Assembly: GCF_037031285.1 (NCBI RefSeq)
Contig: NZ_JAYEZO010000002.1
Span: 682,001-746,000 of the forward strand
Direction: 5' to 3'
Length of the DNA stretch: 64,000 nt
Source: Halobellus sp. LT62
Lineage (GTDB): Archaea > Halobacteriota > Halobacteria > Halobacteriales > Haloferacaceae
Positions 38,381 to 47,693 of the stretch are shown here, one piece after another (the first letter of the stretch is position 1; each line of letters opens with the position of its first letter). The position numbers and the translations under genes were made by a program. The notes below the pieces were generated by a model, which made no database searches, had not been told where the DNA came from, and worked only from the letters and a program-made list of their open reading frames with translations.

Positions 38381-38517
38381 CCGGACGTGGTACTTGGTTG
38401 TCCCGTACCCCTACCCATGGTGGCATCAGCGAGTACTGCGGACCACCCGATCGGCCTTTGGGCCGAGTTCCGGTGCGCGTAAAACTGCTGTCGCCGAACG
38501 TGGTAACACAACAAACT

Positions 38518-40881
38518 ATGACAGGAAATACAAACAAGTCCCGCGCGGTGTTCCTCGCGGTGCTGATGGTTCTCAGCGTCTTCGCTGGAACCGTGGCATT
38601 CACGGGGAGCGCGGCTGCGGATGCGGAATACGCCGGTGGTGCTGTTGAATATAACAACAGTACTGACTGGATCATTGAGGTACCGATTGAAGATGGCGCA
38701 GTCGACCCTGCTGATGTCGACCAAGACAATATCACTCTCCTTGACGGTGGTGAAGATATTAACGACGAATCTGTCGACAATATTTACACCACCAACAACA
38801 ACGGAACCGTCGTCCTCACCCTGAGTGAGAGGGTTTCGTCTAATGATCTGGAGGTTGAATTCGACGATACTTTCAGTTCGAGCCTTGAGGGAACCTACTC
38901 GGTCGCCTTCGCGGCTGAGTCGTACGATCTCACGTCGCTCGGTGGCGACAATAACACGTATCAGGGAACCACCGTCGCCTTCTACAATGACTCCAACGAG
39001 GAAGACTTCGAAATCGAAGGTGACGACACCAACTACTTCCAGAGCTATGGTACCGGTACGAACAGCAGCGTCTTCTACGTTGACACCGGTGACCTCGAAC
39101 TGGACACCTACGATCTGAACGGTGAAGCGAACCTCACCGTTCGCGACCTCGGACTTAGTGTTGAGGTCGACGACGTGAACGTCACAACCGAAGAAACCAT
39201 CGATGGGACTGTTGAGGCCAGTGCTTCCAACAGACCGGTTACCATCGAGTTGCTCGATAGCAACGATGAAGAAGTCGCAAACCAGACAACCACCCTCAGC
39301 GGTCAAGGTAACTACGACTTCAGCTTCTCCGCGGTTAGCGAAACTGGCGATTACACCGTCGAAGTGACTGACGACAACTCCGGTGTCACTACCGAGTCGT
39401 CAACGATCACCGTCAGCGAGGCTGCTGATGATGATGCCGACTTCGTCGAGAACACGATCACCGATCAGCGCGGTGACGTCGCCGAGGTCTCTGTCGAAAT
39501 GGACAGTACTGACACGGCAACTGTCACACTCGGTACGTCTAGTCAAGGTGTCGTCTCCAACGTGACCGTCGAAGACGGTGACAACGATGGAGAGGTCACT
39601 TTCTTCGTGAACACGTACCAGCTCCAGCAGACGGAAACGACTAGCGGCACGCTGGGCGAGAGTGACGGTTATAACATCTACAGTGTCGACTCTGACAGCG
39701 ATGATGAGATCGTCGCATCTGATCTCACCACCAACGTCTCGAATCTGATCGACGCTGGTGAGTACGACCTCGAAATCACCGCGGGCGATAGCGCCACGGC
39801 CGATTCGACGGGCGTCGGAACGCTTATCCTCGAAGAACGCGACACAACCGAGTTCCGTACGTGGACCGCACCTGACGGTGCTTCCATCTCGGACCTCGAA
39901 GACGTTAGTGAAGCAGTCGAAGACGGTGAGCTGACGCAGTCCTCTGAGATCGCCAACGGCGATGTCGTTGTTCACGAGCTGCAGGCCTCCGGATTCGAGG
40001 GTGCCCTCGGTGCGCAGTCTAACGAGGACGTTACTGATACGTTCTTCAACAACGTTGGACCGAGCAACGGCATCTACAATCTCCAAGTTGAGCAGACCGA
40101 TGCTGGTGCAAACCAAGAGCCGTGGTCGGTCAATGTTGGCTCTGATAACACGACTGTCGTCGCTGACGGGGACAACGACACGTACTACGTGTTGTTCGAC
40201 ACCGACAACGTCAACCTGACTGGCGAAGACGCTCCGAGTAGCGGTATCCCGGACGACGAGAGCCTAACGGCCAACTTCACGGTCTACGACAACTCGTCGA
40301 CTGACTTCCTCGCGGACGATGCCGACGAGGATCAGTCGACGACCGTTGATTACGATGTTGTCGAACCCACGCTCTCGGTGAGCGCACCGTACAACGTCAC
40401 GAACGCGGCCGAACAGGATGTGGGCGGTACGACCTCGCTCGCACCCGGCACGGAACTCAGCCTCCGCGTGCGCAGCACGGACGGCACGAGCCCGAGCTTC
40501 CTGAAGACGGCCTCCCCCGTCGTGCAGCCTGACGGCACGTGGAGCGCGTCGCTCGACTTCAGTGAGCAGAGCGTCGGCGACACCTACGAGATCGTCATCA
40601 ACGACGGTTCCGGTGGCGCTGAGGAAGTGACCGAAGACGGCGAAGTCGTCGAATCTGTCGGCACGGTAACGGACGAGCCGACGACGGAAGAGCCGACGAC
40701 GGAAGAGCCGACGACGGAAGAGCCGACGACGGAAGAGCCGACGACGGAAGAGCCGACGACGGAAGAGCCTACTGAGGGCGACTCCGACGGAGACTCCGAC
40801 ACGTCCACGCCCGGCTTCGGTGTCGTCGTTGCGCTGACGGCACTCCTCGCCGCGGCACTTCTCGCTACGCGTCGCAACTAA
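38518..40881 (+). CDS. csg: S-layer type cell-surface glycoprotein, copy 1
   Basis: A 787-residue secreted glycoprotein that probably builds the S-layer. The signal peptide ends near AAADAEYAGG (residue 34). The body is beta-rich with many N-x-T/S sites. Blocks shared with copy 2 are YNVTNAAEQDVGG, LAPGTEL, TDGTSPSFLKT and a final domain identical at DNA level over 135 bp (40519-40653). Six TTEEP repeats (40681-40770) form a Thr linker, followed by GDSDGDSDTSTPGFGVVVALTALLAAALLATRRN, the PGF-CTERM tripartite signal for archaeosortase A and lipid attachment. It starts at ATG 38518, the family N-terminus (KSRAVFLAVLMVLSVFAGTVAF). Confidence 0.9.
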   Translation: MTGNTNKSRAVFLAVLMVLSVFAGTVAFTGSAAADAEYAGGAVEYNNSTDWIIEVPIEDGAVDPADVDQDNITLLDGGEDINDESVDNIYTTNNNGTVVLTLSERVSSNDLEVEFDDTFSSSLEGTYSVAFAAESYDLTSLGGDNNTYQGTTVAFYNDSNEEDFEIEGDDTNYFQSYGTGTNSSVFYVDTGDLELDTYDLNGEANLTVRDLGLSVEVDDVNVTTEETIDGTVEASASNRPVTIELLDSNDEEVANQTTTLSGQGNYDFSFSAVSETGDYTVEVTDDNSGVTTESSTITVSEAADDDADFVENTITDQRGDVAEVSVEMDSTDTATVTLGTSSQGVVSNVTVEDGDNDGEVTFFVNTYQLQQTETTSGTLGESDGYNIYSVDSDSDDEIVASDLTTNVSNLIDAGEYDLEITAGDSATADSTGVGTLILEERDTTEFRTWTAPDGASISDLEDVSEAVEDGELTQSSEIANGDVVVHELQASGFEGALGAQSNEDVTDTFFNNVGPSNGIYNLQVEQTDAGANQEPWSVNVGSDNTTVVADGDNDTYYVLFDTDNVNLTGEDAPSSGIPDDESLTANFTVYDNSSTDFLADDADEDQSTTVDYDVVEPTLSVSAPYNVTNAAEQDVGGTTSLAPGTELSLRVRSTDGTSPSFLKTASPVVQPDGTWSASLDFSEQSVGDTYEIVINDGSGGAEEVTEDGEVVESVGTVTDEPTTEEPTTEEPTTEEPTTEEPTTEEPTTEEPTEGDSDGDSDTSTPGFGVVVALTALLAAALLATRRN
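40681..40770 (+). repeat. Six 15-bp tandem repeats coding TTEEP
   Basis: The unit ACGACGGAAGAGCCG is repeated six times with almost no variation. It codes the surface-proximal O-glycosylation-type linker of the first S-layer protein. Near-identity at DNA level means recent expansion by slippage or unequal exchange. Confidence 0.95.
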
Positions 40882-41048: not shown

Positions 41049-41143
41049 CTCCTCCGGTTAGCTGGTTGTAGTATCCCTACAAGGGGGGCCTAACCTAGCG
41101 CAAAATGGGGACCGTCCATAGTGCTGGGTGGGGAAATACTACT

Positions 41144-43957
41144 ATGACAGATAATACGACGAAGCACCGTGCGGTGTTCCTCGCGGTGCTAATGGTTCTG
41201 AGCGTTGTCGCCGGAACTGTAGCATTCTCGGGGAGCGTCGCGGCGGTCAACGATCCGCGGACGGACGGCGGCAGTATCACGAATACGACCGTCACTGAAT
41301 CGAGCACCAACACGCATTCGGTCCAGCTCAATGCGACGCTCAATACGTCGAACAGCTCTTACGTGAATTACAACCTCTCGTTCCCCAATTCGGCGGATTT
41401 CGATCTTTCGGGTGCTGACAACAGCACGGTTCAGGTCAACGACGGGACCAACGTCGCCATCGAAAATACGGCGATCGACGACGGGAACAACAATTTCACC
41501 GTTAACGTATCGACGAGTGGCGGTGGGCTCGACGATGAGCAGATCAACCTCACGTTCGATCTGACAGGGGTGACCGCTCCCTCCGTTTCGAGCGATCAGA
41601 ACTACCCCGTCGCGTTCGCGCTCGACAACGGAACGGACGGAACAGTCGAAAGTTCCACAACCATCGGGACGCTGACGGTCGAAGACACGGCCGCTGGTGA
41701 ACCGGAACTGAGTAGTGCAGTCCATTACGTCGACACCGGTGACGAAGGTGCGGGTGTCGAACTCGTGTTCAGCGAGCCTGTCAACATTCCCAACAGCGAC
41801 GACGTCACGCTCTACGACGACGGGAGTGAGGTCACGGGCACGTCGCTCTCGCCTGCACCGGGCAGCACGGCCAGCCGCTACTTCCTCAACACGAGCGGAG
41901 CGGTCGTGACCGGCAACGTTGAGGTTAGTCTCTCCGGTGACATCGAGGACGCCGATAACAACGCGCTCACGAACTCCGGCAACAACTCGGTCACTGTCGC
42001 GCCGGTCACAGTGCAGGAGAACGACGACAAGAGCACCTACAGGGGCGGCAACACAGCGATCGTCAGCGACGGAACCGACGACTCGGTCGAAATCGAAGGC
42101 CCTGACGGGTTCTACTTCGACGGATCGACCGGCGCGAACAGCGAGGTGTTCGTGTTCAACACGAGCGGCCAAGCGCTCGGTGACTACGAAGTCAGTATCG
42201 ACGGCAGTACCATCGGAGACACGCAGTTCACGCTGTATGAACTCGGACTCGAACTGACCGTCGACGACACCGAAGTCACGACAGCCGACACGATCGAGGG
42301 AACTGTCACGGCCCGCGATTCCAACCGCGACGTGACGCTCGAACTGCTCGACAGTAGCGGCGACACCGTCGAGGGATCGACCACCAGCGCGACCCTCAGC
42401 GGACAGGGCGAGTACGACTTCAGCTTCGATACGTCCAGTTCGGGACTCGGTCTCGACGCAGACAACTACACCGTCCGCGTGATTGACGACTTCTCCGGCG
42501 TCGAGGCCGAATCCGACGAAATCGTCGTCACCGAAGCTGACGACGAGGACGCCGCGTTCGCAGAGAACGTCATCTCCGATCAGCGCGGTGACGTCGTCGA
42601 ATACACCGTCGAGATGCAGCAGACGAGCACGGCGACGGTCACACTCGGCAGCGAATCTCAAGGTATCGTCTCCAATGTGACCGTCGAAGACGGTGACGGC
42701 GACGACGAGGTGACGCTGTACCTCAATACGACTGCGCTCTCAGACGCCGAAGCGACCTACGCCGACGGCGGGAACGTCTACTCGCTTGACGCCGACAGCG
42801 ACGACGAGATCGTCACTGCCGATGTCGGCACCAACGTCTCGAATCTGATTGACGCGGGCGAGTATGATCTCGAAGTTAGACCCGGTGAGGACGAGACCGC
42901 GTCGTCGACTGACGTCGCGACGCTCGCTCTCGAAGCACGCGGAACGACCGGAATCAGCACGTGGACGCTCCCAGCTGACGCTACTCCCTCGGATCTCGAA
43001 GACATCAACGAGGCCATCGAGGACGGAGAGCTGACACAGACGTCCGAGATTGCTAACGGCGACAAGGTCGTCCACGCGGTCGAGAGCACCGGCCTCGAAG
43101 GTCTGCTCGACGCACAGAACAACGAAGGAATCACCGAGACCTTCCTCGATAAGAGCGCAGCGGGTACCGTCTACAATTTCTCGATCGAACAGACGAGTCC
43201 CGGTGCGAACCAAGAGGCGTGGGCACTCAACCTCACGGAGCAGAACACGACCGTCGTCGCCGACGGTGACAACGACACGTACTACGTGATCGTCGACACC
43301 GGCGAGGAACTGACGTACGACGGGGAATCGATCCCGGACGACGAGGGCCTGACCGCGAACTTCACAGTCTTCAACAACGACAAAGACTACACCGCTGAGG
43401 ATCTCGACAGCGACGAAAACGAAGAGACACTCGTCGACTACGAGATCGTCGAACCCACGCTCTCAGTCACCGAACCGTACAATGTCACGAACGCGGCCGA
43501 ACAGGATGTGGGCGGTGCGAGCTCCCTTGCACCCGGCACAGAACTAACTCTTCGAGTGAGCAGCACGGACGGCACGAGCCCGAGCTTCTTGAAGACGGCA
43601 GCGCCTGTCGTGCAGCCTGACGGCACGTGGAGCGCGTCGCTCGACTTCAGTGAGCAGAGCGTCGGCGACACCTACGAGATCGTCATCAACGACGGTTCCG
43701 GTGGCGCTGAGGAAGTGACCGAAGACGGCGAAGTCGTCGAAGCCGTCGAGACGCCGACGGCAACGGACGAACCGACGGACGAGCCAACCGACGAGCCGAC
43801 AGATGAGCCGACGGATGAGCCAACCGACGAACCGACGGACGAGCCTACTGAGGGCGACTCCGATGGCGACTCCGACACGTCCACGCCCGGCTTCGGTGTC
43901 GTCGTTGCGCTGACGGCACTCCTCGCCGCTGCGCTCTTGGCAACCCGTCGCAACTAA
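41144..43957 (+). CDS. S-layer type cell-surface glycoprotein, copy 2
   Basis: A 937-residue paralogue of the upstream gene, about 150 residues longer at the N-terminal side. The signal peptide (HRAVFLAVLMVLSVVAGTVAF) ends near residue 32 and N-x-T/S sites are frequent. Residues after about 330 align with copy 1 (DGFYFDGSTGANSEVFVFNTSG, FAENVISDQRGDV, DDEIVTADVGTNVSNLIDAGEYDLEV). The linker has seven TDEP units (43763-43846) instead of TTEEP, and ends in the same PGF-CTERM segment with a charged tail. It has slightly different codon use from copy 1. It may replace or mix with copy 1 in the S-layer. Confidence 0.9.
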   Translation: MTDNTTKHRAVFLAVLMVLSVVAGTVAFSGSVAAVNDPRTDGGSITNTTVTESSTNTHSVQLNATLNTSNSSYVNYNLSFPNSADFDLSGADNSTVQVNDGTNVAIENTAIDDGNNNFTVNVSTSGGGLDDEQINLTFDLTGVTAPSVSSDQNYPVAFALDNGTDGTVESSTTIGTLTVEDTAAGEPELSSAVHYVDTGDEGAGVELVFSEPVNIPNSDDVTLYDDGSEVTGTSLSPAPGSTASRYFLNTSGAVVTGNVEVSLSGDIEDADNNALTNSGNNSVTVAPVTVQENDDKSTYRGGNTAIVSDGTDDSVEIEGPDGFYFDGSTGANSEVFVFNTSGQALGDYEVSIDGSTIGDTQFTLYELGLELTVDDTEVTTADTIEGTVTARDSNRDVTLELLDSSGDTVEGSTTSATLSGQGEYDFSFDTSSSGLGLDADNYTVRVIDDFSGVEAESDEIVVTEADDEDAAFAENVISDQRGDVVEYTVEMQQTSTATVTLGSESQGIVSNVTVEDGDGDDEVTLYLNTTALSDAEATYADGGNVYSLDADSDDEIVTADVGTNVSNLIDAGEYDLEVRPGEDETASSTDVATLALEARGTTGISTWTLPADATPSDLEDINEAIEDGELTQTSEIANGDKVVHAVESTGLEGLLDAQNNEGITETFLDKSAAGTVYNFSIEQTSPGANQEAWALNLTEQNTTVVADGDNDTYYVIVDTGEELTYDGESIPDDEGLTANFTVFNNDKDYTAEDLDSDENEETLVDYEIVEPTLSVTEPYNVTNAAEQDVGGASSLAPGTELTLRVSSTDGTSPSFLKTAAPVVQPDGTWSASLDFSEQSVGDTYEIVINDGSGGAEEVTEDGEVVEAVETPTATDEPTDEPTDEPTDEPTDEPTDEPTDEPTEGDSDGDSDTSTPGFGVVVALTALLAAALLATRRN
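43763..43846 (+). repeat. Seven 12-bp tandem repeats coding TDEP
   Basis: Degenerate units ACGGACGA(A/G)CC(G/A) make seven TDEP repeats, at the position of the TTEEP array in copy 1. The sequences flanking both arrays are identical or nearly so between the paralogues, while the arrays differ completely. Confidence 0.92.
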
Positions 43958-44116: not shown

Positions 44117-44462
44117 CTATTCCGAATCGTCGTCGGACTCCTCGCGCCCTTCGATGATCTCTCTCGCGACGTCCGCGACGTGCCGTCGGTGCGCGGCCGA
44201 CGTCCCGACGCTCTGAGCCGCGTCGAGCTGGTCGTTGACGATGGCGTTCTGCTGTGGGCCCCACGTCTCCGGCGGTTCCGACTCGATGTATAGTAGCATT
44301 TGCAACTGATCTCTCATCTGATCGCACGCAGTCGTGCGATCGAGTGAGTGGAGACTTGCAAATGCTACTATATTCGACCCAGCGCTTGATCGCCTCGATG
44401 CACTGCTCGCGGTTTCGTTCGTGCTTCGCAGCCAAGCGCTCACGCGCGTTTGAGTTGCTCAT
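44117..44462 (-). pseudogene. Small gene split by an 80-bp element
   Basis: From ATG 44462 the protein begins MSNSNARERLAAKHERNREQ CIEAIKRWVEY and is broken at 44371 by the element. After the element the frame continues ESEPPETWGPQQNAIVNDQL DAAQSVGTSAAHRRHVADVA and stops at 44117. Deleting the 80-bp element plus one TA joins GTC GAA TAC ATC GAG in frame and restores a charged protein of about 87 residues. The family is not recognised. Without excision, translation from 44462 continues out of frame. Confidence 0.7.
44291..44370 (+). mobile_element. 80-bp double-hairpin element, copy 1
   Basis: Ends TAGTAGCATTTGCAA and TTGCAAATGCTACTA are a perfect 15-bp inverted repeat. A second inverted repeat, GATCGCACG-cagt-CGTGCGATC, lies in the centre. 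The flanks are TA on both sides, consistent with a TA target duplication. Two other 80-bp copies lie at 46153 and 47614. There is no ORF inside. It disrupts the small gene at 44117-44462. Confidence 0.85.
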
Positions 44463-44548
44463 ATTCCGCCTCGACGTCGAGTCGCGTTACCAACGAGTCG
44501 AGTGGATGGTCATAAGAATATGTGCAAAATGGAAACCACTGTTAGAAG

Positions 44549-44704
44549 TGCCCGGGGTGGGCTCCGAACCCACGATCTCCGCATGTCCCAGGTCCGAGGC
44601 TCGGCGGGCCCCGTGGGGAGCGGGCGGAGGCTTCCAAGGCGTACCGCACCGAATCTCAGGAAACCCTATGAGTGCGGCGCTATGTCCAGCTAAGCCACCC
44701 GGGC
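44549..44704 (-). tRNA. trnM: Elongator tRNA-Met (CAU) with an intron
   Basis: The minus strand begins GCCCGGGTGGCTTAGC and ends GGAGCCCACCCCGGGCA, giving a seven-pair acceptor stem (44698-44704 with 44550-44556) and discriminator A at 44549. The anticodon CAT is at 44668-44670 in CTCATA. The anticodon stem CCGCA/TGCGG closes only if an 82-nt intron (about 44585-44666) is removed after position 37, as in other archaeal tRNAs. The T-arm is GTGGGTTCGGAGCCCAC. It is the methionine elongator type seen with introns in haloarchaea, not the initiator. Confidence 0.88.
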
Positions 44705-44727
44705 TCATCTCCTCGTTGGCCGATGAC

Positions 44728-44738
44728 GTTCTTAAACC
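44728..44738 (-). promoter_or_regulatory. Box A of tRNA-Met
   Basis: On the minus strand GGTTTAAGAAC lies about 25-34 nt upstream of the mature tRNA 5' end, the distance expected for a haloarchaeal tRNA promoter. Confidence 0.55.
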
Positions 44739-44863
44739 TTCGCAAGTCAGACGACGGCGCGGCCGTCGACGGATCCACGCGGTACCGCACACGACGACGA
44801 ACTCACGCGCCTTCGGCGTCCGCTTCCGCCTCTGCTTCCGCCTCCGCCTCGACGGTCGCCTCA

Positions 44864-45556
44864 CTACCGATCGACGCCGCTGTCGTTCGCACCGTCCGTA
44901 CGCTCACCCGCCTCGTCGCCGTAGCGATCACAGTACCACTCGTAGGCGGTCGGTCCGACCAAGAGCGCGGCGGTCGCGCCGGCGGCGACGACCACGCGGA
45001 GGTCGAACACGTCCAGTACGTCGCTCGCGACGAGCGACTCCGCGGACGCGCCCGCGAGCACGCCCGCGACGACCCACGGGATCTCGCCGATCGCCGTTCC
45101 GAGGAGGAACGTCGAGAGCCGAACGCCCGCGATGCCGGCGGCGACGCTCACGACGTCCGAGGGCGCGGGTACGAGGCGGCTGGCGACGACGCTCCGGACG
45201 CCGCCCGTGTGATCGACGAACGCCTCGCCCGCGTCGGCGAGCTCTCCTACCCGCCCGTAGCGCCGCGCGAGCAGAAACGGCGGGACGCTGGTCAGCGTGA
45301 CGAGCGCGAGCGCGAGGGGGAACCCCGCGAGGCCGAGGCCGTAGCCGAGCAGGACGGCCAAAAGCGTCGTCGGCCACGCGAGGAGCGGCCGCACGGCTGC
45401 GAGCGCGATGGAGGCGAAGATGAGGCGCACTGGATCGGCGACCAGCCACGCGGCGCGCGCGAGCACTACGTCCGGCGAGGCGACGACCGCGACCGCGACG
45501 ACGGCGGCGATCGTCCCCCCGAGCGCGACGCGCACGCGCAGGCGGGAGCGGTCCAT
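44864..45556 (-). CDS. TVP38/TMEM64-family membrane protein
   Basis: A 230-residue membrane protein with about six helices. WPTTLLAVLLGYGLGLAGFPLALALVTLTSVPPFLLARRYGR and ASRLVPAPSDVVSVAAGIAGVRLSTFLLGTAIGEIPWVVAGVLAG are the conserved halves of the SNARE-associated (DedA-related VTT) domain. These proteins are thought to move lipids between leaflets or carry ions; the archaeal role is unknown. Downstream, an Ala/Glu repeat tail lies in another frame (44803-44870), hinting that the C-terminus was once longer. Confidence 0.83.
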   Translation of the reverse strand: MDRSRLRVRVALGGTIAAVVAVAVVASPDVVLARAAWLVADPVRLIFASIALAAVRPLLAWPTTLLAVLLGYGLGLAGFPLALALVTLTSVPPFLLARRYGRVGELADAGEAFVDHTGGVRSVVASRLVPAPSDVVSVAAGIAGVRLSTFLLGTAIGEIPWVVAGVLAGASAESLVASDVLDVFDLRVVVAAGATAALLVGPTAYEWYCDRYGDEAGERTDGANDSGVDR

Positions 45557-45626
45557 CGTCTCCCCGTCGCCGCCCCGCGGGCATAACAGTTATTTTGTCG
45601 CTGTGGCTCCGAGAGAGGGTCAGACC

Positions 45627-46148
45627 GTGGCCGACGACGAACAGCGAGATCTCGCGGCGTTCGACGAGGACGGTAGCGAACGCGACGCCGAGATCGACGG
45701 CGAACGAGACTCTGAGAGCGACTGCACTGTCCCTGGAGCCGACAGCGACCCGGCCATCCCGAGCGAGGGCACACCCGTCGCTGAACTCGATCAGCGCGAA
45801 CGCGTCGAACTCGGCGTCGACCTCCTCGCGCATATCGAAACCGAGTCGCTCTCGCTTTCGGACGCCGTCGACAGAATCGAGTCGGTGACGACGAACCCCT
45901 CGCTCACGAGAGAAATTCTCGATACCGCGGAAATGCGGGGAATCATCGAACGCGAAGAGGGACGCCTTCGGACGCGACGCGGCGGGACCTACGTCAGATT
46001 CGAGCAACAGGTCGTCGAGCGCGACGGCGACTTCGAGTGTCGGCGCTGCGGAGCGAGCCTCTCGACGGGGCACTTCGTCCGGTTCGAGGCGGGTGAACTC
46101 GGCCCGTTCGGCCCCTCGTGCGTGCGGAAGATTCTCGGACGGGAGTGA
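45627..46148 (+). CDS. DUF5830 family zinc-ribbon protein
   Basis: A 173-residue protein starting at GTG 45627. The first 55 residues are acidic and disordered. The core VELGVDLLAHIETESLSLSDAVDRIESVTTNP forms a helical, winged-helix-like segment, and the C-terminus FECRRCGASLSTGHFVRFEAGELGPFGPSCVRKI has a CxxC and a later Cys typical of a zinc site in DUF5830. It may bind nucleic acid; activity is unknown. The 80-bp element copy 2 begins four bases after the stop codon. Confidence 0.8.
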   Translation: MADDEQRDLAAFDEDGSERDAEIDGERDSESDCTVPGADSDPAIPSEGTPVAELDQRERVELGVDLLAHIETESLSLSDAVDRIESVTTNPSLTREILDTAEMRGIIEREEGRLRTRRGGTYVRFEQQVVERDGDFECRRCGASLSTGHFVRFEAGELGPFGPSCVRKILGRE

Positions 46149-46152
46149 GGGA

Positions 46153-46232
46153 TAGTAGCGTTTGCAACTGATTATCCATCTGATCGCACGACAGCGTGCG
46201 ATCGAGTGGGTGCAGACTCGCAAACGCTACTA
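46153..46232 (+). mobile_element. 80-bp double-hairpin element, copy 2
   Basis: The ends are TAGTAGCGTTTGC and GCAAACGCTACTA, a perfect 13-bp inverted repeat. Relative to copy 1 the A-T pair of GCATTTG/CAAATGC is G-C here, in both arms. The centre is GATCGCACG-acag-CGTGCGATC. It lies between the stop codons of two convergent genes, separated by only 3-4 bp on either side. The right flank has TA and the left GA, so one copy of the target repeat may be altered. Confidence 0.83.
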
Positions 46233-46235
46233 TAG

Positions 46236-47486
46236 CTACCGCCCGCGACGGAGTTCTTCGATGAGCTGTTCGACCAACTCGCGCTGGGCCCGCAGTTCGG
46301 CGTTCTGCCGCTCGACCGTCTCTCGGAGCTCGGAGAGCGCTTCGAGCATCTGCTCGTCGGCCGTCGGAGCGGCCGCCTCGAAGCCCGAACCCGCGAATCC
46401 GGGATCGGGGGATTTCGACTCGCCTTCGCCGGTCGCCTGCGTCCGTTCGAGCGCGTCTGCCGTCTCGGACCCGTCGTCGATCGGTTCAGTCAACTCCGAT
46501 TCCGGCGGTTCAGCGCCCGAAGCGGACGGGTCGACACTTGCGTCAGTGGCATCGGCGTCGACGCCGGAGTCGCGCTGGGGGCTTCCGCCGCGAGTCTGTA
46601 CCGGTTCGGGATCCGCGCCCGCGTCCGCCGGTCCGTCTTCGGGGGGCCGCTCGACCTGTTGGGCGAGCGCGTCGACGTCCTGTCTCGTCGGTTCCTCCGA
46701 CGGCGACGCTTCGGCCTCACGCGTCGCGTTCGACGGCAACTGCTCGGGCTCGTCGGGATCGGCGATCAACGGATCGGGGCCGTCGCCGAAAGTGACTTCC
46801 TTGCTCTCTGTGTCGTCTGCGGTCTCTGCGTCGGCCTCGTCATCGTCGGGCTCTGCGGCGGCCCGAAGCTCCTCGATCGAGTCGACGTCCCAGTAGGCGA
46901 GAAGCGTCGTCTCCAGGGCGGCGCGAACCGCGCGCGCGTCGTCGTTGGGCGCTTTGAACCGCTCCTGCCGGCCGTTGACCGTCAGGACGACCGACGTGGC
47001 GACGCTGCCGTCCTCGAACGTGAGGTCGGTGACGTCCCCGAAGTGATACGACTCGAAGTCCTCGTCCCACAGGTTCGACCCGATGTGGCGCACGACGCGC
47101 TCGCCCGCGATGGCGACCGTGAGATCGCTGAAGCGGAAGAGCCGCTCCATCGGTTCGTCGGGTTCGAGAACCGCGTTGGCCTTGAGCACGCCCTCGACGA
47201 TCGGGTGGAGGGCGCGTTCGAATCGCTTCGCGGGAAGCGAGATGGTCTGTTCGCCGTCGAGACCGTAATCGAGCGTCACCTTCGCCTTGCGGCGGCCCTC
47301 CGAGACCGTGATTCGTTCTGCCTCGTGGGAGTACTCCTCGACGGACTCATCGGAGAGCAAGCCTTCCGCGCGATAAAGCAGCGTCCGCGTCGGCGTCACG
47401 TACAGTTCGTCCTCGCCGCCGAGGTCGACTCGTGCGACCACGTCCTCGTCGGCGAGGTCGGTCTGGACGATCTCCGGTTGGCTCAT
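46236..47486 (-). CDS. DUF7115-like halophile protein with C-terminal coiled coil
   Basis: A 416-residue soluble protein. Residues 1-215 form a folded domain with repeated beta strands (GGEDELYVTPTRTLLYRAEG, LFRFSDLTVAIAGERVVRHIG, GDVTDLTFEDGSVATSVVLTV), which recalls the PH-like halophile DUF7115 proteins. Residues 215-365 are a long acidic, disordered linker. The last 45 residues (MLEALSELRETVERQNAELRAQRELVEQLIEEL) are a coiled coil. It probably oligomerises through that end. ATG 47486 (MSQPEIVQTD) is chosen. Function unknown. Confidence 0.72.
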   Translation of the reverse strand: MSQPEIVQTDLADEDVVARVDLGGEDELYVTPTRTLLYRAEGLLSDESVEEYSHEAERITVSEGRRKAKVTLDYGLDGEQTISLPAKRFERALHPIVEGVLKANAVLEPDEPMERLFRFSDLTVAIAGERVVRHIGSNLWDEDFESYHFGDVTDLTFEDGSVATSVVLTVNGRQERFKAPNDDARAVRAALETTLLAYWDVDSIEELRAAAEPDDDEADAETADDTESKEVTFGDGPDPLIADPDEPEQLPSNATREAEASPSEEPTRQDVDALAQQVERPPEDGPADAGADPEPVQTRGGSPQRDSGVDADATDASVDPSASGAEPPESELTEPIDDGSETADALERTQATGEGESKSPDPGFAGSGFEAAAPTADEQMLEALSELRETVERQNAELRAQRELVEQLIEELRRGR

Positions 47487-47613
47487 AGATCCGTCCACCG
47501 CCCGTTTCGTCATAAATCCGTGGGTCTTTCCGGCGGTCATCGCCGATCGTACCCACGCGATCGGTGGTCTATCTTGTCGCCGTGGGTGCAACGGATTTGC
47601 ACGGCCGATACTA

Positions 47614-47693
47614 TCGTAGCATTTGCAAATCTTCACTCACACGATCGCACGCTGTCGTGCGATCGGATGAACAATCAGTTACAAATGCTACGA
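47614..47693 (-). mobile_element. 80-bp double-hairpin element, copy 3, inverted
   Basis: Ends TCGTAGCATTTG and CAAATGCTACGA form a perfect 12-bp inverted repeat. TA dinucleotides flank both sides. The centre is GATCGCACG-ctgt-CGTGCGATC. Relative to copies 1 and 2 the outer base pair A-T is C-G in both arms and the spacers read in the opposite orientation. It sits between the DUF7115-like gene and the divergent K+ channel gene. Confidence 0.83.

Follow-up and report, generated by a model that had tools for sequence, protein, structure and literature searches.

Three nested palindromes in Halobellus sp. LT62: a probable MITE family with IS630-type ends and co-varying arms

What is an 80-bp palindrome nested around a second palindrome, and why do its arms change in matched pairs from one copy to the next? 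The question arises in the window, i.e. the whole 64,000-nt stretch of Halobellus sp. LT62 DNA that was analysed, in which a first-pass annotation had placed three 80-bp double-hairpin copies at 44291-44370, 46153-46232 and 47614-47693; they are indeed found there. We consider it about 93 % probable that these copies are those of a non-autonomous MITE and that a haloarchaeal transposase of the IS630 family (Tc1/mariner superfamily) recognises its ends. The features concerned are the following.

44117-44462, minus strand: small host gene interrupted by copy 1; 87 aa once 82 bp are removed, and intact in H. captivus
44289-44290, no strand: left TA target duplication of copy 1, from the H. captivus comparison
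44291-44370, plus strand: copy 1 of the probable MITE (80 bp); a single TA stands at the matching point in H. captivus (L110)
44291-44305, plus strand: left terminal inverted repeat of copy 1, TAGTAGCATTTGCAA; rank 1 in the window with the IS630-end matrix, counted from 44289
44320-44341, plus strand: central hairpin of copy 1, GATCGCACG-CAGT-CGTGCGATC, from the core pattern search
44356-44370, minus strand: right terminal inverted repeat of copy 1; rank 2 with the IS630-end matrix, counted from 44372
44371-44372, no strand: right TA target duplication of copy 1, from the H. captivus comparison
46153-46232, plus strand: copy 2 of the probable MITE (80 bp), between convergent genes; flanked by GA on the left and TA on the right
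46182-46203, plus strand: central hairpin of copy 2, loop ACAG, from the core pattern search
47614-47693, minus strand: copy 3 of the probable MITE (80 bp), inverted, between divergent genes; TA on both sides
47643-47664, minus strand: central hairpin of copy 3, from the core pattern search

Counted with its flanking TA, the unit measures 84 bp and consists of a 17-bp arm, a 14-bp spacer, a 9-bp arm and a 4-nt loop, followed by the same parts in reverse. Its terminal inverted repeats (TIRs), announced as at least 12 bp long, measure 15 bp, or 17 bp with the TA. The core GATCGCACG-N4-CGTGCGATC, described as a central hairpin common to all copies, occurs exactly three times without a mismatch, while only 0.24 occurrences would be expected even if three mismatches were allowed, and the single-strand folds of the copies lie far below those of shuffled sequences (z = -6.8 to -9.5). 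The first-pass annotation was also right about the paired arm differences (GCATTTG/CAAATGC versus GCGTTTG/CAAACGC, and TAG/CTA versus TCG/CGA), about the TA on each side of copies 1 and 3, and about the inversion of copy 3 relative to the other two, with which the asymmetric spacers agree. Its statement that the copies lie between genes or inside a small gene holds for copies 2 and 3, which are intergenic, but needs amending for copy 1, which interrupts its gene. The gene between copies 2 and 3 encodes a protein that is 85-95 % identical in most named Halobellus species. Two other features of the neighbourhood may be mentioned. The segment 44550-44704 (minus strand) looks like an intron-containing elongator tRNA-Met with an anticodon arm CCGCA-CTCATAG ... 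TGCGG; ARAGORN, run over the whole window in its bacterial setting, reported no tRNA. Moreover, 38398-40881 and 41105-43957 (plus strand) are two tandem paralogous surface-glycoprotein-like genes, in both of which a PTDE/PTTE repeat tract precedes a C-terminal hydrophobic tail.

The element is by no means confined to the window. A search of the LT62 genome returned 40 full matches (65 candidates at first look) and 51 intact cores with at most two mismatches, compared to none for the reversed control pattern, so that the many genomic copies looked for amount to a family of about 50. It is thus short, devoid of a transposase gene, bounded by matched TIRs, multi-copy and dispersed, as MITEs are. 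Its distribution over the genus Halobellus is patchy, ranging from none to about 60 per genome, and beyond the genus it is sporadic, occurring on plasmids of Halostella, Haloplanus, Natrialba magadii, Haloferax mediterranei and others. The phage records searched gave no match to the element, and a TIR scan of viral contigs yielded scattered single matches among the matches listed. In genome G014, identical 84-bp copies carrying the same asymmetric arm mutation occupy several places (L041, L058 and G014:C16:81940; two were read and the third has the same score), which suggests recent transposition there. The same genome harbours 165-bp composites (L255, L256, L258 and L267) in which another palindromic element, about 80 bp long (TAGGGAYTATCGTAA...TTACGATARTCCCTA), is inserted in the spacer of the MITE; since the composite is found at four places, it probably moves as a unit. 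At the other extreme, minimal forms of about 54 and 38 bp (L259, position 509, and L289, position 1510) comprise little beyond the two terminal repeats.

How the copies came to their places is most clearly seen at copy 1. The H. captivus ortholog of the interrupted gene contains a single TA where the window reads TA-[80 bp]-TA, which implies insertion of 80 bp plus a duplicated TA. The H. captivus frame is open across the site (...IKRWVEYIRSEPPEKWG...), whereas its window counterpart is broken between WVEY and IESEPPETWG; a Pfam search of the small gene gave no match. Copy 2 is absent from relatives, although the exact empty site is blurred, and the flanks of copy 3 are too diverged there for a clean one. 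Two further copies have precise 82-bp empty sites: at G000:C1:236695 two bases stand in place of the copy at seven loci in relatives, and at G000:C2:782565 the empty site is found in one relative. Both read TC where TA is expected, so that the pre-insertion TA is deduced from the flanks. The search for empty sites in relatives therefore yielded three clean ones, with the exact TA in one. The copy at G000:C1:236695 (L020, 1501-1584) lies within a ParE-like toxin gene and interrupts it; the open frame upstream resembles the antitoxin of this gene, and relatives carry uninterrupted sequence at this site. The family has thus interrupted genes. TA is present on both sides of 55 of 76 copies, and the flanks read C-TA-G in 20 of 76, compared to 1.2 expected from the TA sites of the window (p = 3e-19). 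Duplication of a TA target is a property of IS630/Tc1-mariner elements, and a preference for CTAG has been described for IS630; in IS630 elements from the same order, C precedes the TA at 33 of 40 ends.

The ends provide the link to a particular transposase family. IS630-family elements of haloarchaea, including Halobellus, were first located via the protein family and not via their ends; they are about 1.06 kb long, and their overlapping frames encode an HTH protein and a DDE_3 protein. On the C-terminal side of the transposase the end is TATAGTAG-N3-TTAGAA-N4-TTRCTCA and on the opposite side TATAGTAA-CCG-TTAGAA-CTTT-TTACTC, while the ends of the MITE read TATAGTAGCRTTTGCAA-CTGA-TTGCTCA and TATAGTAGCRTTTGCAA-GTCT-TCACTCA, with boxes and spacing in register. 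When about 128,000 window positions were scored with a matrix derived solely from 37 IS ends, the six ends of the element ranked 1-5 and 7, and the subterminal boxes matched the IS C-end so closely that shuffles did as well in only 3 and 11 of 20,000 cases. The assignment to an IS630-type MITE is made because the ends agree in register and rank in this way. Descent of the left and right spacers from the C- and N-ends of an IS, respectively, was also considered and failed (44/74).

The search for an IS with the same ends thus succeeded as regards the in-register match, but 392 sampled genomes yielded no IS630 whose end carries exactly TTGCAA, the known IS having TTAGAA. A TTGCAA match in G017 turned out to belong to a MITE about 110 bp long, and no transposase lies beside the solo ends L069 and L070, considered as autonomous partners. 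A masked TIR-only BLAST of plasmids found nothing, and a search for a TIR followed within 28 bp by a start codon retrieved sister MITEs and no IS. These sisters (L276, L277, L284, L285, L291 and L376, from G017 and G044 of genus g2) are about 110 bp long and share the 17-bp ends around a different interior. The LT62 genome itself yielded no DDE_3 gene, only IS5-like DDE_Tnp_1 transposase remnants, a point against present-day mobility of the element in LT62; candidate IS630 elements do occur in other Halobellus genomes. Since neither the exact TTGCAA IS nor a DDE_3 gene in LT62 was found, the transposase is placed at the family level only.

In outline, an IS630 transposase supplied in trans would bind the bipartite ends, made up of TATAGTAG and the TT--AA box followed by the TTRCTCA box, excise the element by cut and paste and insert it at a TA; the matching gene would since have been lost from LT62. 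Precedents for the mechanism are available (PMC2170065, PMC8604942). The first-pass suggestion of a TA-target MITE of the IS630/Tc1-mariner type is accordingly supported: there are many copies, relatives have empty sites, and one IS family has ends that match.

The matched arms call for a separate explanation. The covariation seen in three copies persists in a larger alignment: among 74 distinct copies, paired changes number 27 in the outer arms (6.6 in shuffles, maximum 14) and 12 in the core hairpin (2.6, maximum 8), whereas the spacers show no excess (36 compared to 30, maximum 39). The loop occurs in both orientations, as judged from the direction of the spacers (CTGT 16 and ACAG 17; CCGT 8 and ACGG 2), inverted loops being found between copies that are only four bases apart elsewhere (median pair distance 12), and CTGT and ACAG interchange at least 11 times on a tree that is weak, with 76 columns. 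Furthermore, the core stem extends by 5-7 bp into the normally mismatched spacer in five copies. The two outcomes described for template switching at inverted repeats are precisely arm homogenisation and spacer inversion (PMC8604942). Covariation accompanied by repeated loop inversion and by conversion tracts that run outward points to template switching in quasi-palindromes. During replication, one arm would be copied from the other, and the loop would flip as well, which would in part keep the arms matched and make the covariation mainly mutational. On the available alignments, the paired changes most likely come from such copying and not from an RNA function. In all 74 copies the position immediately internal to the 17-bp arms shows a mismatch, so that the left/right asymmetry is kept.

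Alternatively, the arms could match through selection by the transposase for similar ends or through exchange between subfamilies, with little template switching, a possibility that concerns the covariation only and that we regard as rather unlikely. One transposase would bind both ends, and the A-T and G-C states at position 10 could represent old subfamilies. Position 10, however, falls within the N3 of the IS630 ends, which is variable and differs from one end to the other of a single IS. Both states of position 10 occur across spacer and loop backgrounds, with 12 changes on the weak tree; loop inversion, moreover, is left unaccounted for. A transposase that favours similar ends may contribute to arm matching, but this is not sufficient, because position 10 is free in IS630 ends and the loop flips are not explained.

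The remaining explanations do without an IS630-type transposase. In the first, the palindrome is a binding site for a host protein dimer, a regulator or a nucleoid protein, spread by conversion and not by transposition. The core hairpin is conserved in the element, absent from IS630 elements and common to elements with changed ends in distant haloarchaea (Natrialba, Haloferax and others), and protein binding could be a secondary role of this core. As an account of the whole element it is very improbable, given the precise 82-bp insertions with TA duplication, the CTAG preference and the match of the ends to IS630. A conserved structured RNA, be it a small RNA or a cis-regulatory hairpin whose pairing is kept by selection, has in its favour the paired changes above shuffles in both stems and the great stability of the folds, and yet we give it hardly any credence. 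There is no plausible Rfam match; the copies interrupt genes, and their places are not orthologous and have empty counterparts in relatives; the loop inverts freely, and the 14-bp spacers remain mismatched. An RNA also predicts an excess of G-U on one strand, and the wobble excess is not consistent (G-T versus A-C is 30/13 in the TIR but 14/19 in the hairpin). The first-pass proposal that covariation reflects a conserved RNA or protein-binding structure is thus not supported, as the copies do not sit at conserved orthologous loci, and loop inversion with arm conversion accounts for the paired changes on which it rested. Finally, a REP/PATE-like element moved by IS200/IS605 single-strand transposases is the least credible of all, for although hairpins are present and such elements are common in haloarchaea, PATEs are without terminal inverted repeats or target duplications (PMC3119063), and the element has both.

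Beyond this family, matched changes between the arms of a DNA palindrome do not by themselves prove a functional RNA, for the same trace is left by arm conversion together with loop inversion. The loops and arms of the roughly 50 copies in LT62 also provide a natural record of template switching in archaea. Speculatively, and we rate it as unlikely, the nested palindrome might be a self-repairing design, in which template switching keeps the ends matched and the element transposable without selection for structure, the loop flips record the events, and the central hairpin seeds the correction or serves transposition. The family, spread as it is across haloarchaea, appears undescribed; its sequences were not found in the literature searched.

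Among known systems, the haloarchaeal IS630 family comes close, with TA duplication, CTAG preference and TATAGTAG-N3-TT--AA-N4-TTRCTCA ends in the same register; the element differs by its 80 bp, the lack of a gene, a second box TTGCAA instead of TTAGAA and the extra central GATCGCACG hairpin. The CTAG preference of IS630 is stated in the title of Tenzen and Ohtsubo 1991, cited in PMC2170065. ISY100 and IS630 likewise insert at TA by cut and paste, but they are autonomous and bacterial (PMC2170065). The MITEs of Haloquadratum walsbyi, compared by description only, are similarly short, share inverted ends with a transposon, duplicate their target and sometimes lack an intact transposase, whereas the present element has 80 bp with a nested central palindrome (PMC3119063). 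The SMRs and PATEs of Haloquadratum are also short, transposase-free haloarchaeal repeats, SMRs having about 110 bp and inverted ends; unlike the element, which possesses both features, they show no target duplication, and the SMR ends match no transposon (PMC3119063).
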